Shown here: piece by piece, positions 10,462 through 62,656 of the stretch | Layout: every line of letters starts with the position of its first letter | How positions within the stretch are numbered: the first letter of the stretch is position 1 | From: a virus | Virus record (IMG/VR): IMGVR_UViG_3300045125_000071 | Location: 1 to 64,000 of that record | Length of the DNA stretch: 64,000 nucleotides | Direction: 5' to 3' (one strand) | Notes under the pieces: model-generated | The model's database searches: none | What the model was told of the DNA's origin: nothing | The model's input: only the letters and a program-made list of their open reading frames with translations | Made by a program: the position numbers and the translations under genes

Positions 10462-10500
10462 ATCAATAAATATAATGATTGATGAAATGTATATAAATAA

Positions 10501-10529
10501 GAAAACCCAGATTATTGGTCTGAGTTTTC
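10501..10529 (-). terminator. rho-independent terminator
   Basis: An inverted repeat, GAAAACCCAG with CTGAGTTTTC (one mismatch), has a 9-base loop. It overlaps the stop codon of the DUF5522 gene and separates that gene from gp25. Tracts of T or A flank both sides, so it could work in either direction, but only minus-strand genes surround it. Confidence 0.6.
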
Positions 10530-10694
10530 TTTTATTTTAGTATTACCCCTTTCTCCCTTTGGTTCATATGGACAATGTCTACATCCGTCTTTCTTTGAAC
10601 CACAACAATATCCTCTTTCGATGTGGTATTTTTCGGTGAATACCACTCTATCACCATCTAAATAATAATGAACTTCTTTTATAAATTCTTTCAT
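10512..10694 (-). CDS. DUF5522-type cysteine-rich small protein
   Basis: A 60-residue protein whose core, VVFTEKYHIERGYCCGSKKD followed by GCRHCPY, matches the DUF5522 pattern (F-T-x-x-Y-H-x-x-R-G-[YF]-C-C-x-n-G-C-R-H-C-P-Y). Cysteines at residues 30, 31, 38 and 41 could bind a metal; this is inferred. The usual spacing between the CC and CxxC pairs is lengthened here by SKKD. Members are small, of unknown function, and in my knowledge mostly from Bacteroidota, which supports the host inference. It lies 11 bases after the epimerase gene on the same strand and is followed by a terminator. A host-derived accessory gene is likely. Confidence 0.8.
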   Translation of the reverse strand: MKEFIKEVHYYLDGDRVVFTEKYHIERGYCCGSKKDGCRHCPYEPKGERGNTKIKENSDQ

Positions 10695-10705
10695 GGTATT
10701 ATTTT

Positions 10706-11535
10706 TTATAAACTAATAATAGATTGAAGATACTTTTTATATTCTCCCAATCCATTTTCTAAATTATATTTTGGTTCCCACCCATCCATCCATAAAATTT
10801 TATTTGAACATGTGTAGAACTGGTATCCAAATGGTATTTTATTTTCTTCATGATATGTAAATGGAATATCCATAATATCCAATATATCTTCGAATGTTCT
10901 TGATTCACCATAACCAACATCATAAAATTTTCCTTTAAGTTTTACATAATTGTCTTCAGCATATAAATTAGCATTTACAACATCTTTAACATATATAAAA
11001 TCTCTTTTAGGTTTTAATGGGAATAATTTACATTCTTCATGTTTTCTATGTTTAATAAACGACTGATATGCGACAGATGACATCCGTCCTTTATGTTCTT
11101 CCCCTGGACCATACACATTAAAATATCTAAGTGCAATACCATTGTTTGATATTACATATTTCTCTGCAACGTATTTGCTCCACCCATAAAGATTAGATGG
11201 ATATTTCCCATTATCACCATAATTCGCTGCCGATGATGAATAAATCATTTTTGTGTTAGTCTTTACACAATAATCAGTTAAAATCTTTGTGAATTCAAAA
11301 TTTAACTTCATCATGTAATTAACATCTGTCTCTAATGTATCAGAACATGCCCCAACATGAAAAATAACTTTTGGGTTGTTCTTTTTAAGAATACCTAAAG
11401 GTTTTCATCCCAATCAGAATCATCAAATATATCTTCGTTTATTTCAATAACAAAATATGAAGACATTCTTCTAATTGTGTTAGCTAAATTTTTTCCTATG
11501 AACCCTTTTGCCCCTGTTACTATAACATTTACCAT
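10706..11535 (-). CDS. NAD-dependent sugar epimerase, HldD-like (one frameshift)
   Basis: A short-chain dehydrogenase-type nucleotide-sugar epimerase. The ATG at 11535 gives MVNVIVTGAKGFIGKNLA, with the Rossmann GxxGFIG motif at the extreme N-terminus. The frame shifts near 11398 and continues as VIFHVGACSDTLETDVNYMM and then ORF 10706-11314. Further motifs are IYSSSAANYG, the catalytic YGWSK (YxxxK), RYFNVYGPGE and KRDFIYVKDVV. The GACSDTxExD and KRDFIYVxDVV segments are those of ADP-glyceromanno-heptose 6-epimerase, which inverts C6 of ADP-heptose for LPS core. About 276 residues against roughly 310 for E. coli HldD. Its start overlaps the stop of the heptose-kinase-like gene by 7 bases, a strong sign of joint function. 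A different nucleotide-sugar substrate cannot be excluded. Confidence 0.8.
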
Positions 11536-12268
11536 GGTGTTACTACTCCTCTTTTTGATACTACTATTGATGACATTTCATTTTGCAACTACAATAGAGT
11601 CTAAAATGTTTTTGTTTGATGATATTTTAAAATAAACGATGCTGTAAATGTATCTCCAGCACCACTAACATCTATAGTTTCCTTTGGTGATGGTGATGGG
11701 AATATATCATTTTTGTATTTGACACCTTTAGACCCTAATGTGATTAAAATATTATCAAAATTTTTAAACCTTGATTATTTTTCGCTTCGTTTTCATTTAA
11801 CTTAACAAATGTGAATTTACTTATTGTTTCATCATCAAGTATTTTTTTTGAATCAAGTATAGATAACTTAGAAAGATTACCGATAATATTTAATGATTTA
11901 ATATTTAAAAACCCTTTATCATAATCACTTACAATTACAATGTCGTATTTTGGTATTTTTTCTAATAATTCGTTAGTTAGATTTATACCAGATATATTTT
12001 CCTCACCTTCATCTAATCTTAAAAACATATGATTACTTTTTTTATCAACGTATCTTGTCTTTGTAATTTTTTCATTTTGAAAAATTTGATTGATATTCAA
12101 TGATTTATCAAGTGATTTAAGATTGTTTAAAACATTACCTGACATTCCTTTATTTCTTATAATTTCTATTGGATTTAAAACAGGTACAGGTGCTTCTGGT
12201 GATAATCTTTTACAATCCCCATAAATAAAAACATCATCACAAACCTCACCTATTATTAATATTTTCAT
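11529..12268 (-). CDS. PfkB-family sugar kinase, RfaE/HldE kinase-domain-like (frameshifted)
   Basis: ORF 11744-12268 is the N-terminal part: KILIIGEVCDDVFIYGDCKR, then the RfaE hallmark LSPEAPVPV and a G-x-S-G-N-V-L-N-N-L segment (normally GGAANVA). After an indel near 11760 the protein continues with NILITLGSKGVKYKN and the PfkB signature DVSGAGDTFTASF (GAGD carries the catalytic base). A second indel near 11605 leads to the end EMSSIVVSKRGVVTPW, stopping at 11529. In bacteria this domain phosphorylates heptose-7-phosphate on the way to ADP-heptose. It has about 246 residues, and the cytidylyltransferase half of HldE is absent. It is coupled to the HldD-like gene (7-base overlap). Confidence 0.78.
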
Positions 12269-12330
12269 TTAAAAAAAATATCAATTTTTTTGCATATTCG
12301 AAAGCGTAAATATTTTTTGTAATTTATGAT

Positions 12331-12825
12331 TTAATTCTTAATATTGTCGATTGAAATTATATATTTTGATATGTTATCAATACCGTCATCTATATTTTTA
12401 AAATAAATCCTTTCTTCTTGCTCATCATAATCCGCCAGTTTGATTAAAAAATCTCTCACAACATTTTCTGGTTCATTTTCTAACCAATCGTATTCCCAAC
12501 TATTTTCATAATTCCACCCTGGCATGTAGGCAAATGGTTTAATTTTATATTTATTAGATAATTTATCCCCATCTAATGTAATTCTATAATCAGTTTTAAC
12601 TTGCCAAGTCGTATTCCTTTTATGAAAATTTTTATTTCTTGTAAAAGAAATATAGTTTAGTTGATGTCCTCTATAAAATTCTTCTGAAGTATTTAATTTA
12701 TTTGTTTTTAAAATGTTTTCTAAACCAGTTTTAGAAGTATAATGGTACAATAATCCGACTTGCTTTGATTCATTCAAAACAATAATCATGGATTTAATTC
12801 TTGATATTTGTTCTTGTAAATTCAT
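12331..12825 (-). CDS. ADP-ribosyltransferase-like protein with N-terminal tag-like peptide
   Basis: A 164-residue intact ORF. After a 20-residue amphipathic N-terminus (LQEQISRIKSM, ending LNE) comes GLLYHYTSKTGLENILKTN. In order, the sequence shows H28 in LYHYTS, S60/T62/R63 in ISFTRN, and E137-E138-R139 in EERIYF. The order H, then S/T, then E in an H-Y-T-S...S-F-T-R...E-E-R-I frame is typical of small ART-fold proteins of phages, where the last Glu would be catalytic. This is motif reasoning only; no homology search was run. The N-terminal segment resembles peptides seen in three other proteins here and could be a capsid-targeting sequence (T4 packages its ART, Alt). It sits between the phosphoesterase and the kinase, both 11-60 bases away. 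Confidence 0.6.
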   Translation of the reverse strand: MNLQEQISRIKSMIIVLNESKQVGLLYHYTSKTGLENILKTNKLNTSEEFYRGHQLNYISFTRNKNFHKRNTTWQVKTDYRITLDGDKLSNKYKIKPFAYMPGWNYENSWEYDWLENEPENVVRDFLIKLADYDEQEERIYFKNIDDGIDNISKYIISIDNIKN

Positions 12826-12836
12826 AATAATAAATA

Positions 12837-13628
12837 TTATACCACCATTGATTTATCTTCAATTGGTTTGTAGTGTATAATTTCTATTTTACCATCATCA
12901 TGAATCAATATTGCTGTCATTGATTCGACCCAGTCACCTGAATTTAAATAATGAACATTATCAATAATTCTATCCATTTCTTGGTGAATATGTCCACATA
13001 TTACTCCTTGACATCCATGATATTCGGCCATTTTTGCTGCGGTATTTTCAAAATCATTGACATAGTTTGTGGCGGTCTTTACTTTTTGTTTCAATGGTTT
13101 TGATATTGATTTATATTTAAAACCTCTGAATTTTCTCCATTTATTATATTGCGTATTCATCCATAACGCAATATCATAACCAACACTACCAATTTTTGAT
13201 AACCATTTATATTTTAACATGAAAATATCGATTTCATCGCCATGAAAAACAAAGTATCTTTTATTTTCAAATTTATCTTGGGTAATCCATTTATTAATAT
13301 TTATAACATGATTTTTTACTATTTTTATATTACCCATGTTAAAACCAATGTAGTCATCTAAGAATTCATCATGGTTTCCTCTAACCCATATGACTTCAGT
13401 TGTTTCAGATATTTTCAATAGTTTATTTACAACTTTAGTATGTTTTTTCTTCCATTTTGAACCTCTTTTCAATGCCCATCCATCTATTATATCTCCATTC
13501 AAAATTAAAGTATTACAAGAGGTATTGTCTAAAAATTCTATTATTTCATTTGTCTTTGAATCTCTTGTACCCAAATGTAAATCAGAAATTACAATCATAT
13601 TAACCATTCTATCAGTTTTATAAAACAA
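12837..13628 (-). CDS. LpxH-like metallophosphoesterase
   Basis: An intact calcineurin-like phosphoesterase of about 255-263 residues with every metal-binding motif in place: SDLHLG (residues 15-20), NGDIIDGW (44-51), RGNHDEF (83-89), FHGDEID, GHIHQE and NSGDWVES. This motif set is that of the UDP-2,3-diacylglucosamine pyrophosphatase (LpxH) type, which hydrolyses a pyrophosphate in lipid A synthesis. Related enzymes act on other nucleotides, so the substrate is open. The start could be Met1, Met8 or Met11; the core begins at MIVISDLHLG, so Met8 or Met11 is likely. It lies between a GT2 gene and the ART-like gene in a run of surface-sugar genes, which favours a role in host envelope modification. 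Confidence 0.85.
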   Translation of the reverse strand: MFYKTDRMVNMIVISDLHLGTRDSKTNEIIEFLDNTSCNTLILNGDIIDGWALKRGSKWKKKHTKVVNKLLKISETTEVIWVRGNHDEFLDDYIGFNMGNIKIVKNHVININKWITQDKFENKRYFVFHGDEIDIFMLKYKWLSKIGSVGYDIALWMNTQYNKWRKFRGFKYKSISKPLKQKVKTATNYVNDFENTAAKMAEYHGCQGVICGHIHQEMDRIIDNVHYLNSGDWVESMTAILIHDDGKIEIIHYKPIEDKSMVV

Positions 13629-13680
13629 ATGGTTAGTAACACCGTACTAACAATTATTAATTCTAAATTTATTTTCCTTT

Positions 13681-14355
13681 TCATGACCAATAATTATGTG
13701 ATTTGTAAAACCAAGATTTATTATTTCTATTAAACCAACTTTTTATGATTAGTACATACATCCACATAACACCTTTTTTATCAAATCGTCTGCCAGATGT
13801 ATATATATACTTTTTAACTAACTTATGTCTATCTTTAAGTATCATCCTACTTAATAACCAATCTTCGGCAACTTTTACGTTTTCGTTAAATTTTCCACAT
13901 TCGATAAATTTTTTTGTTCTCCATAATTGAAATCCACCTATTACAAAAGTCTCTGGTAGTATTTTTTGTAATAAATGAAACCCATTCCATAACCAATCAT
14001 ATTTTTTATCATCACATCGATATATACAAGAAACCAAATCATATTCGTCAATCGATTTTAAACAAGTTTCAATTAACTTTGTATCATATATCATCATATC
14101 CGCATCTAAAAATAAAACGAAAGGGGTTTGACATAAATCAAACCCCTTGTTTCTTGCAATAGATGGCAATCCACCATCGATTATTTTTATATGATTTTTG
14201 TTTTTAACATAATCATGTAATTCAACGTCTTTAATATCTGAAGAATCTGCAATAATTATATCAAAATTTATAGATTGTAATTCTAATAATTTTAAGCATT
14301 TTATAAGTGTATGACCTTCATTTTTTGATGGTATAACAATTGTTAGAATATTCAT
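13681..14355 (-). CDS. family 2 (GT-A) glycosyltransferase
   Basis: An intact protein of 224 residues with the GT2 layout: TIVIPSKNEGHTL at residues 5-17, nucleotide-sugar contacts at IIIADSSD, GLPSIARNKGF (62-72), and the metal-binding DxD as LDADM (83-87). Toward the C-terminus is VAEDWLLSRM, where the ED pair fits the usual catalytic base region. It lacks a transmembrane tail. GT2 enzymes move sugars to lipids, proteins, polysaccharides or modified DNA bases. Here it follows the reductase by 28 bases and precedes the phosphoesterase and heptose-type genes, so surface-polysaccharide modification is the best guess. DNA or virion glycosylation remains possible. Confidence 0.85.
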   Translation of the reverse strand: MNILTIVIPSKNEGHTLIKCLKLLELQSINFDIIIADSSDIKDVELHDYVKNKNHIKIIDGGLPSIARNKGFDLCQTPFVLFLDADMMIYDTKLIETCLKSIDEYDLVSCIYRCDDKKYDWLWNGFHLLQKILPETFVIGGFQLWRTKKFIECGKFNENVKVAEDWLLSRMILKDRHKLVKKYIYTSGRRFDKKGVMWMYVLIIKSWFNRNNKSWFYKSHNYWS

Positions 14356-14383: not shown

Positions 14384-17300
14384 TTATATGCGTGTAATTT
14401 CGCAACTTGACCCAGAACAAGCCATTGAACCATATTCTCCAATGTCCTTATATTGTGGTTTATCAAGAATTTCGCCAAAGTTAACTTCCTTGAACTGACG
14501 AGTAACGGTTTCCCACTTGTGGAAAAGATGCACATCCTTCAAGCAATATACCATTTTTCTCATGTCACCCTTAAAGTAATTCTTAGCGAATTTCTTTGCC
14601 CTATCTAACCAATATTTCTTCAATAATACTTGTTCCCTTGTTCCTGTAATTGGTAGAGCATATTCTGTGCCCATATTAATTAAAGTATCACAAGCTAACC
14701 AAAGGTTGTTGTCGAAGTAATGGAGACCATCTACAACCAATCCAGAAGCCAATACAGCGCCTTTTCCATATTCCTCGACAAGTTCTTCGAGGTTAAGTAC
14801 TGAGGTGAATGGTGCTTGGTTAAAATCCTTATCGCCGTAGTCTGACATGAATGATACCGCAGTAAATTCTTCTTTATTATCCCAAATGTAATCTACAATA
14901 ACATCCTTGTCATCAATGATTACAGTGCAACTGGTATTGTGGTTTACAGGATTATATATACATTTTTCTGGATTTGTACCAGCATTAACCCAGTTTTGTT
15001 GGACTAATTTGATAAGTTCAAGGTGTTTAATACCCTTCATATCTTTTTTGAACAACCCTTTTTTAGGGTTCTCAACAGGGACGAATACAACATAATCACT
15101 TTTTGTTTGCGACCAAACACTATCTTCTAATAAGAAGTCCATATTATCAACCAACCATTTAGCAGTATTGGATTCTTTGTTTAATTGCATGACTCTGAAA
15201 TATTTTTCAGAATGTTCTGGATGAATACCAGATGCTGTACCAAGAACTACAGATGCATTACCTGAAGGTTTAACGCAAGTGGTTCTTGCTGCCTGATTAA
15301 TATCAATAACTTCTGCAAGTTCCTTATTTGTTTTCTTAACAATCTCAGCACCTTCTTTAAGAAGTTCGGCGTTGAATAACATCGGATTATTCATCCAACC
15401 AGTTATGCTCACACCAAGCAACGCCTCTCTTGCAAAAATCTTTTCACTAACCTCTCCAAGATATGGGAAACTGTTATATCCCGCCTGAAGTGTACCAAGG
15501 ATTGTCGCGTCTTTACATGCCTTAAAGAATTTCTCTTTTGTTGTACATTTTTCAGCATTAATCTCTGATAGGTTGCATTGTTTAGTTAAAACATTATTAA
15601 ATAACCCTTGATGTTTATATTGTTCTTCAAAACAATATGAATTGTGGAATCCTTCTAATTGTACAATACTATCAATACATTGATATTTACCCTTATATTT
15701 TACTTCACTTGGCTGAAACCTAGTTTTGGTTGACCATAATTCTCCACAATCACTAATTTGAACATACCAAACATCTCTATTTCTTGTTCCAAAGTTTGTT
15801 ACCTCGCCCTTTTTGCTACAAAGATTAACAGTAGAATTTACCCCAATTTTAGTTAATAAAAGTTGTAAATCCCTAATCTTGTTTTCTTCACCATAAATTC
15901 TGGCTTTGTTATTATATGTAATTGTTCCATCGGTATCTATCCAACCAGCAATAAATGCAAGAATTGATTTTTTACTCCAACTAAAAATTTCAGAAGGTAA
16001 ACCATCTTCATATTTTAATTTATGAGATAGTTCCTTATCTAACTTATTAAAAGTAACATTATAATATTCTGTTTCAATTCCATTATAAGATTCTTTTAAT
16101 TTTTTACCAATTGTACCATCAACAAAAGGATATTCATTAGAAAAATTACTTTCATAGACAGAAGCAAAGGGGGTTCTGTATTTATCACCTATCTTAGGAC
16201 AAGTACCATCGCCTAAAACAAAACCATAATCATAAGCATAAATTTCATCGTGACCAAAATCAAAATCATTTACATTACTTCTTGGTACTTGAAGTTTATA
16301 TTTGGTAGTTTTTAGCAATTCAATTAAATCTTTTGTCTCGATTTCTTTAAATTGTTTTTCAAATCTATTTTTAACTAACCATTTATGGTTTTCAGTACAA
16401 TCCAAATATGAACCATCATTTAATTTTACCCTAAAAAGTTTTCTATTTGTACCAGTAAGAATAGGTTTGACTTTTGACCAATTTTCTCCATTCCAAATTT
16501 CAACCTCCCTATTTTCATCAACTACCTTACCAATCATTTCAATTCCATCCTTAGTAATTAATTTTGTTTCATATGAAACACACCCTTGGATACCAAACTT
16601 ATGTTTGTTCACACTCACATAATGCTCAACATCTTCATAGTCGATTTTTGAGAAATCAACCTCATCGAGTATTGGTAATTTCAATATTTCAAAACATGGG
16701 TTGAACATATCAAACCAAGAATTTGCGAATACAAAACCAATATCGTTTGCACCATCGTTTAGTTTAACAAGATAATCAAACTGGTCTTTAGTCACTTTAC
16801 CCCTTAACAAGAGAACCGAATTGTTCGACCTTGCTCTTTGTGGATTTTCTTCTCTCCAATTACCCGTTTTAGCATGAATCATTTCGGTATCATTTGGGTC
16901 AACAATCATATTTAATGCTGACCTTCTAACCCCGCCAGACAATACCGCATCAGATGCATGACAAATGATGTCAAATGCCAAGATTGGCCTGATTTTATTT
17001 CCTTCCTTATCAATCCACCTTTCGATTAATTGTTCGATTTTTTCAAGGGATTGTTTAAGTCCATCGGGACCAGGAGCCTTGAATCCGCCACTAATGAATG
17101 TACCCTTTTCTCTAACTTGTGAATAATCAAATTTAACCTCATATCCTGCATATTCAGGGAATGGTTGGTTGTCAACAAAATATGATGACAAAAGAACGCC
17201 GAGTGAGTCCGCCCAACCTTCAATAGAGTCAGGTACAACAAATGTCTTAGCACCTAAAACCCTTTTCTGAATACGACTAAGATTATTAACAAATGGGATT

Positions 17301-17656
17301 AACAATCCGCCACCAACACCGCAACCAGATAAACCAAGATAAAATATTTCTTGGAATACTCTATTCCTCATTATGTGTGTACTAGTACAGTTATACATCC
17401 TTGTGTTATGTCTCAAAATTTCAGTATGTCTATACTGCAAATTTCTTTGAGATGCTAACACAACCTGGTCTTCCATACTTTCAAGAGCAGATTGTAGATA
17501 TTCTTCAATCTGATAATTAGAGTATTTTTGCCTATGACCATTTATAATGTCTGCACAAGCCTCTTTCCAATTTTCGTACCTTCCAATTTCATCCCTCCAT
17601 TTGAAGTAATCGGAATACAATTTTAAGTCGCTAAGAAATTTCTTACCTTTTTGCAT
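14384..17656 (-). CDS. nrdJ: adenosylcobalamin-dependent (class II) ribonucleotide reductase with intein
   Basis: A single open frame of 1090 codons containing a 335-residue intein (residues 359-693). The joined exteins make 755 residues, close to the monomeric ribonucleoside-triphosphate reductase type (about 740). Visible motifs are MYNCTS (Cys90, first redox Cys), LSGCGVGGG, GGVRRSA, NPCFEI (Cys321, thiyl-radical Cys with Glu323), CNLSEIN (Cys694, second redox Cys), KPSGNASVVLGTASGIHPEH, and the C-terminal shuttle pair CSGSSC (Cys1080, Cys1085). It makes dNTPs for phage replication without a separate small subunit and without oxygen dependence. It sits 21 bases downstream of the helicase in the replication operon. 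It is the longest intact gene in the window, whereas most of its neighbours are frameshifted. Confidence 0.95.
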   Translation of the reverse strand: MQKGKKFLSDLKLYSDYFKWRDEIGRYENWKEACADIINGHRQKYSNYQIEEYLQSALESMEDQVVLASQRNLQYRHTEILRHNTRMYNCTSTHIMRNRVFQEIFYLGLSGCGVGGGLLIPFVNNLSRIQKRVLGAKTFVVPDSIEGWADSLGVLLSSYFVDNQPFPEYAGYEVKFDYSQVREKGTFISGGFKAPGPDGLKQSLEKIEQLIERWIDKEGNKIRPILAFDIICHASDAVLSGGVRRSALNMIVDPNDTEMIHAKTGNWREENPQRARSNNSVLLLRGKVTKDQFDYLVKLNDGANDIGFVFANSWFDMFNPCFEILKLPILDEVDFSKIDYEDVEHYVSVNKHKFGIQGCVSYETKLITKDGIEMIGKVVDENREVEIWNGENWSKVKPILTGTNRKLFRVKLNDGSYLDCTENHKWLVKNRFEKQFKEIETKDLIELLKTTKYKLQVPRSNVNDFDFGHDEIYAYDYGFVLGDGTCPKIGDKYRTPFASVYESNFSNEYPFVDGTIGKKLKESYNGIETEYYNVTFNKLDKELSHKLKYEDGLPSEIFSWSKKSILAFIAGWIDTDGTITYNNKARIYGEENKIRDLQLLLTKIGVNSTVNLCSKKGEVTNFGTRNRDVWYVQISDCGELWSTKTRFQPSEVKYKGKYQCIDSIVQLEGFHNSYCFEEQYKHQGLFNNVLTKQCNLSEINAEKCTTKEKFFKACKDATILGTLQAGYNSFPYLGEVSEKIFAREALLGVSITGWMNNPMLFNAELLKEGAEIVKKTNKELAEVIDINQAARTTCVKPSGNASVVLGTASGIHPEHSEKYFRVMQLNKESNTAKWLVDNMDFLLEDSVWSQTKSDYVVFVPVENPKKGLFKKDMKGIKHLELIKLVQQNWVNAGTNPEKCIYNPVNHNTSCTVIIDDKDVIVDYIWDNKEEFTAVSFMSDYGDKDFNQAPFTSVLNLEELVEEYGKGAVLASGLVVDGLHYFDNNLWLACDTLINMGTEYALPITGTREQVLLKKYWLDRAKKFAKNYFKGDMRKMVYCLKDVHLFHKWETVTRQFKEVNFGEILDKPQYKDIGEYGSMACSGSSCEITRI
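15578..16582 (-). mobile_element. intein with LAGLIDADG homing endonuclease, in nrdJ
   Basis: The intein runs from Cys359 (GIQG|CVSYETKLITKDG) to Gln693 (NNVLTKQ|CNLSEIN). Splicing block A is CVSYETK, and block B is the DCTENHKWLV region with its T-x-x-H. Two dodecapeptide endonuclease motifs are present, YDYGFVLGDGT and LAFIAGWIDTDGT, each with its acidic residue, so an active DOD homing nuclease is plausible. Block F is QLEGFHNSYCF. The C-terminal residue is Gln, not Asn, and the residue before it is Lys, not His. Terminal-Gln inteins are known, for example in an iridovirus reductase. The +1 nucleophile is Cys694, the reductase's own redox cysteine. Confidence 0.9.
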
Positions 17657-61441: not shown

Positions 61442-62656
61442 ATGTCTAAAATAAAATTATTAGCAATCCCGTCAGATACACACGGCGTAGGTAAGTTTAG
61501 AATTCTTGACCCATTCAAATATATTGGGGATAACTTTTCAGATGATATCCATGTCGATATTATGTTTGATGCACCAGACCTGGATAGTACATTTGATGGT
61601 TATGACATCGTATATTTACATTCTTTTATTCACAAAACATCACACGAGGCTAATGTAAAAAGAATTAAATGGTTAAAATCAAAAGGTATCAAAGTTATTG
61701 TGGATATCGATGATTTATGGTTTGTTGACCAAAGACATCCAATGTATCATCAAGTTATTGCAACAAAAGTACCAGAAAAGAAAATTGAATTACTGAAATT
61801 AGCAGATTATGTAACAACAACAACACCAGTATTCAGTAAAACAATAAAAGATAGATTAAATCTAAAAAATGTAATTATTTTTCCGAATGCAGTAAATGAA
61901 GACGAGGAACAGTTTAAAGTAAACAAAATACCTTCTGAAAAAATTAGATTTGGGTGGCTTGGCGGCAGTAGTCATTTACATGATATTGAATTATTAGAAC
62001 AAGGAATATCAAGCATACATGCATCTTATAAAGATAAAGTTCAATTTGTTCTTTGTGGTTTTGATTTAAGAGGGACGGTAACAGAAATCAAAAAAGAAAC
62101 TGGCGAGCAAGTACAAAGACCAATACAACCACTAGAAACTGTTTGGTTTAAATATGAAAGCATATTCACAGACAAATATAGAACATTAGACCAAGAATAC
62201 AAAACATATTTGTTTAATTTCACAGAAGCACCGTATAATGATACTAATAAACCATATGTTAGAAGATGGACAAAAAACATTAATACATATGCAACGAATT
62301 ACAATCATTTTGATGTTTCATTGGCCCCTCTTGTAGAATCAATGTTTAACGCTAACAAATCACAGTTAAAAGTTATCGAAGCTGGTTTCCATAAAAAAGC
62401 TATTATTGCAAGTGAAACAAATCCTTATACCATAGATTTGGTAAATTCAATAGAAAATGGTATATTTAACAACAAGGGCAATGCGCTTCTTGTTTCATCG
62501 AGAAAAAACCATAAACAATGGGCGCAACATATGAAAAAATTAATCGAAAACCCTTCCATGATTGAAGACCTGGGAAATAGATTATACGAAACAGTAAAAG
62601 ACACATATTCATTAAAAAAGTGTGTAACGATAGAGTTCAATTTTTTAAAACCATAA
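61442..62656 (+). CDS. GT4-like (GT-B fold) glycosyltransferase
   Basis: An intact protein of 404 residues. The first domain starts KIKLLAIPSDTHGVGKFRIL and has DGYDIVYLHSFIHKTSH and VIVDIDDLWFVDQRHP; the second starts NVIIFPNAVNE, with IRFGWLGGSSHLHDIELLE (nucleotide-sugar binding loop), VQFVLCGFDLRG and DVSLAPLVESMFNANKSQLK with VIEAGFHKKAIIAS (the E-x7-E-type donor motif region). This is the GT4 layout. The acceptor is unknown: host polysaccharide, virion protein or modified DNA are all possible. It comes before the small DUF4494-like gene, dUTPase and PhoH. With the GT2 at 13681 it makes two unrelated glycosyltransferases in the window. Confidence 0.87.
   Translation: MSKIKLLAIPSDTHGVGKFRILDPFKYIGDNFSDDIHVDIMFDAPDLDSTFDGYDIVYLHSFIHKTSHEANVKRIKWLKSKGIKVIVDIDDLWFVDQRHPMYHQVIATKVPEKKIELLKLADYVTTTTPVFSKTIKDRLNLKNVIIFPNAVNEDEEQFKVNKIPSEKIRFGWLGGSSHLHDIELLEQGISSIHASYKDKVQFVLCGFDLRGTVTEIKKETGEQVQRPIQPLETVWFKYESIFTDKYRTLDQEYKTYLFNFTEAPYNDTNKPYVRRWTKNINTYATNYNHFDVSLAPLVESMFNANKSQLKVIEAGFHKKAIIASETNPYTIDLVNSIENGIFNNKGNALLVSSRKNHKQWAQHMKKLIENPSMIEDLGNRLYETVKDTYSLKKCVTIEFNFLKP

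Follow-up and report, generated by a model that had tools for sequence, protein, structure and literature searches.

A heptose-type kinase–epimerase pair, a putative reduced sugar-nucleotide cassette, next to a glycosyltransferase–phosphoesterase module in a phage record

Four sugar-related genes lie close together in the virus record IMGVR_UViG_3300045125_000071 and were described by the initial annotation as one heptose/LPS-type cassette, which raises the question of whether they act together and on what. The window, i.e. the whole stretch of DNA analysed here, comprises bases 1–64000 of this 251,358-base record. The open reading frames and Pfam matches confirm a single minus-strand run between replication and baseplate genes, flanked by ribonucleotide reductase and helicase genes at one end and by the baseplate genes gp25 and gpJ at the other (Table 1). 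On balance, we lean towards reading the run as two independent accessory modules, in which the kinase–epimerase pair would be a reduced sugar-nucleotide cassette relying on host enzymes.

Table 1. Features of the minus-strand run, in window coordinates
Feature	Position	Strand	Evidence or remark
GT2 glycosyltransferase, 224 aa, intact	13681..14355	-	PF00535 E 1.2e-15; first gene of the GT2–phosphoesterase module
Calcineurin-like metallophosphoesterase, LpxH-like fold, 263 aa from TTG (start uncertain), intact	12837..13628	-	PF00149 E 2e-16
164-aa ORF, between phosphoesterase and kinase	12331..12825	-	ORF list
Short HldE-type PfkB sugar kinase, three frame changes in contig	11529..12268	-	TIGR02198, PHROG 8133, PfkB match
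HldD-like nucleotide-sugar epimerase, one frame change near 11400	10706..11535	-	TIGR02197 and viral alignment
DUF5522 small protein, downstream of epimerase	10512..10694	-	PF17653 E 6e-15
Terminator-like hairpin, 13-pair stem, end of run before gp25	10499..10531	-	Consensus match only

The GT2 assignment was upheld by its Pfam match. The reported 7-base overlap between the kinase and the epimerase was also confirmed (ATGGTAA at 11535–11529). The 164-aa ORF, which had been missed in the earlier gene list, lies inside the supposed cassette and found no match in Pfam, NCBIfam, PHROG or PDB. Sigma-70-like promoters were not enriched (38 observed versus 39.8 in shuffles), and TATAAATA late-promoter-like sites occurred at chance level (20 versus 19.9). 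A 12-pair hairpin lies within the GT2 coding sequence (14121–14148). The ribonucleotide reductase ORF (14384–17656, minus strand) contains a LAGLIDADG, intein-like insertion, for which PF14528 scored above and PF14890 below the cut-off. A similar short leader (e.g. MKNNIILTESQLKRIIEKVIAEQ) seemed to open the 164-aa ORF and the proteins at record positions 76317, 117143, 125898, 145388 and 150327; this is an impression only, and the shared N-terminal pattern did not exceed its controls (11 matches versus 10.2 in internal stretches and 5.4 in shuffles). Elsewhere in the record, a nicotinamide phosphoribosyltransferase-like ORF was found (L010:17300–18148, minus strand, PF18127), and the G+C content is 0.31–0.40 at 144001–224000 (L008–L011) versus 0.27–0.33 in the remainder, possibly because this part has another origin or because the contig is chimeric.

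The heptose-type character proposed for the kinase and the epimerase was borne out, HldE-kinase and HldD being their best matches. The first open piece of the kinase scored 84.7 bits with TIGR02198 and matched only heptose-7-phosphate kinase models in NCBIfam, the window kinase matched PHROG 8133 (E 1e-45), and the piece carrying DVSGAGDTF has a PfkB match. An intact relative at locus L026 scored 131 bits with HldE domain I versus 47 with ribokinase, and the seven best PDB matches of its structural model (pLDDT 92.7) were all Burkholderia HldA, with ribokinases behind. The phage kinase shares with HldE/HldA the motifs SPEAPVPV, SDYxKG and DVSGAGDT, all of which are present, and finds in them its best PDB match in both sequence and fold; however, it is shorter (about 247 versus about 315 residues), has no fused nucleotidyltransferase and misses the TIGR02198 equivalog cut-off of 345 bits, with the window piece as well as with L026. 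Two segments of HldE, with estimated lengths of roughly 24 and roughly 19 residues, are absent from it. In a tree of 96 kinases, the short ones were split from classical HldE with 100/100 support and formed a nearly all-viral clade, which also takes in six kinases of Patescibacteria or of a bacterial genome bin placed next to them and a few other genome-bin contigs that may be viral. As a sole query, the window kinase retrieved no relatives from viral contigs; an alignment query was used instead for the viral relatives, and the same kind of kinase is present in hundreds of other phages. The window kinase groups (91/84) with six loci, five of which (L029, L032, L039, L042 and L050) carry HAD, nucleotidyltransferase, kinase and epimerase genes, and the sixth (L033) all but HAD. 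Judging from these sequence features, we infer a short HldE-like kinase that would phosphorylate a heptose-7-phosphate-like sugar at C1.

The short kinase also occurs in patescibacterial genomes (L111, L113 and L115–L118), in most of them beside E1-like genes and a zinc dehydrogenase gene. These kinases fall within the viral clade, close to that of S-SM2, which suggests transfer between phages and Patescibacteria.

The 202-aa piece of the epimerase scored 138 bits with TIGR02197, the next different family reaching 39.6, and the intact epimerase of L025 scored 208 bits on this HldD model; both miss its cut-off of 274.6 bits. The catalytic residues of HldD lie in the YxxxK motif and at the HKG lysine. 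The phage protein keeps SSSAA, YGWSK and EEHKGRMSS, and the Tyr and both Lys are conserved in the alignment of viral relatives. This alignment also contains a stray fragment of 26 residues, which has no bearing on the results given here. HldD (ADP-glyceromanno-heptose 6-epimerase) is thus by far the best match and shares the catalytic Tyr and Lys motifs, but the phage relatives are mostly 260–288 aa, compared with about 310 or more, and score below the equivalog level.

Within 6 kb of 80 viral kinase loci, we found a nucleotidyltransferase at 47, a cupin at 44, an HldD-like epimerase at 23 and a HAD protein at 20. The nucleotidyltransferase of the relatives has HldE domain II as its best match (103 bits, cut-off 181.5). 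Among the 20 related viral records that are 97 kb or longer, several of them near-duplicates, 18 carry it. A GmhA-type isomerase was found in none of 28 related viral records. The 251-kb record itself yielded no homologue of the nucleotidyltransferase, GmhA, HAD or cupin; it may be incomplete, and the absence of partner genes is therefore no proof of loss. In the ADP-heptose route, the enzyme concerned is an adenylyltransferase (HldE domain II), cytidylyltransferase being only the name of the superfamily. The step previously noted as missing under the latter name is indeed missing, from the whole record and not only from the window. Compact cassettes of cupin, HAD, nucleotidyltransferase, kinase and epimerase genes were seen at L026, L032, L039, L042 and L050, and the cupin could replace GmhA in compact phage cassettes.

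All the matches to heptose enzymes lie below the NCBIfam equivalog cut-offs (131 of 345, 208 of 275 and 103 of 181.5 bits), so the substrates may differ. The kinase and epimerase might serve another sugar (a hexose, a pentose or a modified heptose), the heptose label then reflecting ancestry only; besides the low scores, the consistently short kinase, the lack of GmhA in the related records, the frequent cupin at kinase loci, and the dehydrogenase and thiamine enzymes that accompany it in CPR bacteria, L034 and S-SM2 all speak for this. In CPR relatives, the partners of the kinase are a zinc dehydrogenase and an E1-like, thiamine-dependent enzyme, not heptose genes. Nevertheless, each of the three cassette enzymes of the relatives has its counterpart family in the heptose pathway as its best match (HldE domain I 131, HldE domain II 103 and HldD 208 bits), the HldD catalytic motif is kept and HldA is the best fold match. 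We consider a different sugar unlikely, while giving it more weight than any other alternative. Should heptoses be the substrates, then the lack of GmhA in all 28 records, together with the repeated occurrence of the cupin, turns the source of heptose-7-phosphate into a directly testable question.

The upstream pair, GT2 and phosphoesterase, has different neighbours in related viral contigs. The phosphoesterase contains the motifs DLHLG, NGDIIDGW, GNHDEF, FHGD and GHIHQ, and the best fold match of its model (pLDDT 80) is Haemophilus influenzae LpxH (5k8k). Its description as LpxH-like with all metal motifs is accordingly sound as to fold and metal ligands (DxH, GD, GNxD and GHxH), both shared with LpxH (UDP-2,3-diacylglucosamine diphosphatase), but not as to identity: the Arg of the LpxH motif GNRD, present in two genuine LpxH proteins, is replaced in GNHD of the window protein and of all 12 aligned viral homologues, GHIHQ stands for GHTHR, and the LpxH score is 40 bits of the 134 required. 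By this active-site motif, the protein is not LpxH. Searching PDB with a profile of the phosphoesterase family gave nothing significant. PMC4807358 describes LpxH itself as calcineurin-like and notes that in other bacteria its reaction can be carried out by an unrelated or diverged enzyme, so the phosphoesterase may act on the LpxH substrate or on another one.

A GT2 match stands directly upstream of the phosphoesterase in 9 of 15 viral loci (8 of 14 plus one truncated locus). None of the 15 viral loci found with the phosphoesterase showed a match to the kinase or to the epimerase within about 6 kb, and at none of the 80 viral kinase loci was there a phosphoesterase match. By this pattern of sequence neighbourhoods, GT2 and phosphoesterase form a separate conserved module, independent of the kinase and epimerase. 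The same strand, the short gaps and the terminator-like hairpin after DUF5522 would fit one operon in which all four enzymes act jointly on heptose and LPS; however, related viral contigs carry the two pairs separately, an unrelated 164-aa ORF separates them here and the phosphoesterase is without the LpxH arginine, which makes a joint operon improbable. The single four-gene cassette of the initial annotation is not sustained, and in related phages the kinase and epimerase accompany the nucleotidyltransferase, cupin and HAD genes instead. Two modules that resemble one operon are now separated.

The kinase and epimerase had also been taken as open genes. The kinase motifs SPEAPVPV and DVSGAGDTF are present, yet they sit in different reading frames, and frame changes occur at about 11770, 11605 and 11580; likewise, the reported epimerase motifs GACSDT, YGWSK and KRDFIYVKDVV are there, but the gene is interrupted by its single frame change. 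The open pieces in the contig measure only 174 aa (kinase) and 202 aa (epimerase), whereas the relatives have an intact kinase of about 247 aa (most 242–258) and an intact epimerase of about 270–286 aa (mostly 260–288). Intact proteins from relatives, mapped onto the record, revealed frame switches in 22 of 55 matched places (a manual count); core genes were among them, with three switches in a DNA polymerase and four in a ClpB-like ATPase, both named from the appearance of their sequences and the polymerase also from similarity to phages. The breaks in the kinase and epimerase fall at or beside homopolymer runs. They are probably contig-wide indel errors, because a viable phage is unlikely to have its essential genes disrupted and the copies of relatives are intact. 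That the pair consists of decaying pseudogenes, as four frame breaks within 1.56 kb and the nucleotidyltransferase missing from the record might suggest, is very improbable in view of the frame switches across the record (DNA polymerase and ClpB-like ATPase included), the intact active-site motifs of both proteins and the homopolymer runs at the breaks. The broken gene call is thereby corrected, and the pair is placed in a widespread viral kinase clade.

Returning to the favoured reading of two modules with a host-dependent kinase–epimerase pair, the analysis shows the gene content, family placement, conserved motifs, HldA fold match, modular linkage in relatives and absence of the partner enzymes from this record, whereas the sugar acted on, the help from host enzymes, the glycan targeted and the gain to the phage are inferred. 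The kinase would phosphorylate C1 of a heptose-7-phosphate-like sugar to give the sugar 1,7-bisphosphate, host enzymes would supply isomerisation, removal of the 7-phosphate and adenylylation, and the phage epimerase would then invert C6 of the NDP-heptose. Phage or host glycosyltransferases could place the sugar on the host envelope; other glycosyltransferase-like genes are found in the window (61442–62656) and elsewhere in the record. By analogy with other phages, the cassette probably alters the host surface glycan, and the most likely benefit would be an infected cell that is less receptive to other phages. It is a long shot that phages keep a compact heptose-like nucleotide-sugar route with the cupin in place of GmhA, of which some, like this one, retain only the kinase and epimerase and so redirect the host heptose-phosphate/ADP-heptose pool rather than build a new sugar. 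The DNA polymerase is weakly similar to those of Salinibacter phages and the helicase to those of Flavobacterium phages among others, and these similarities hint at a host among Bacteroidota or relatives.

Cassettes of this kind are known from other phages. The co-occurrence of cyanophage gene clusters 304, 305, 307 and 308 was reported in 2010 (PMC3037559), a 2021 paper described a sugar cassette of this kind in jumbo phages (PMC7824862), a cyanophage announcement names such genes heptose genes (PMC7378029), and the host envelope has been proposed as the target in cyanophages and pelagimyophages (PMC7824862, PMC7029224). By sequence identities, the P-SSM2 members of the four clusters are a nucleotidyltransferase, a kinase, a cupin-like protein and an epimerase; PSSM2_312 is annotated as a nucleotidyltransferase, yet is cupin-like by sequence. 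With the T4-like cyanophage cassettes (P-SSM2 PSSM2_309–313; S-SM2 SSM2_200–203; T4-GC 304, 305, 307 and 308), the present locus shares the short HldE-type kinase, at 37–41% identity (tblastn), and an HldD-like epimerase in a tailed phage. P-SSM2 and S-SM2 add a nucleotidyltransferase and a HAD protein, and P-SSM2 also a cupin, whereas here the short kinase and HldD-like epimerase alone remain, adjacent and overlapping, with no nucleotidyltransferase found in the same phage. The kinase type is real but largely known already; the kinase–epimerase pair is a new reduced member of a known cassette, carried by a phage that is not closely related to the cyanophages.
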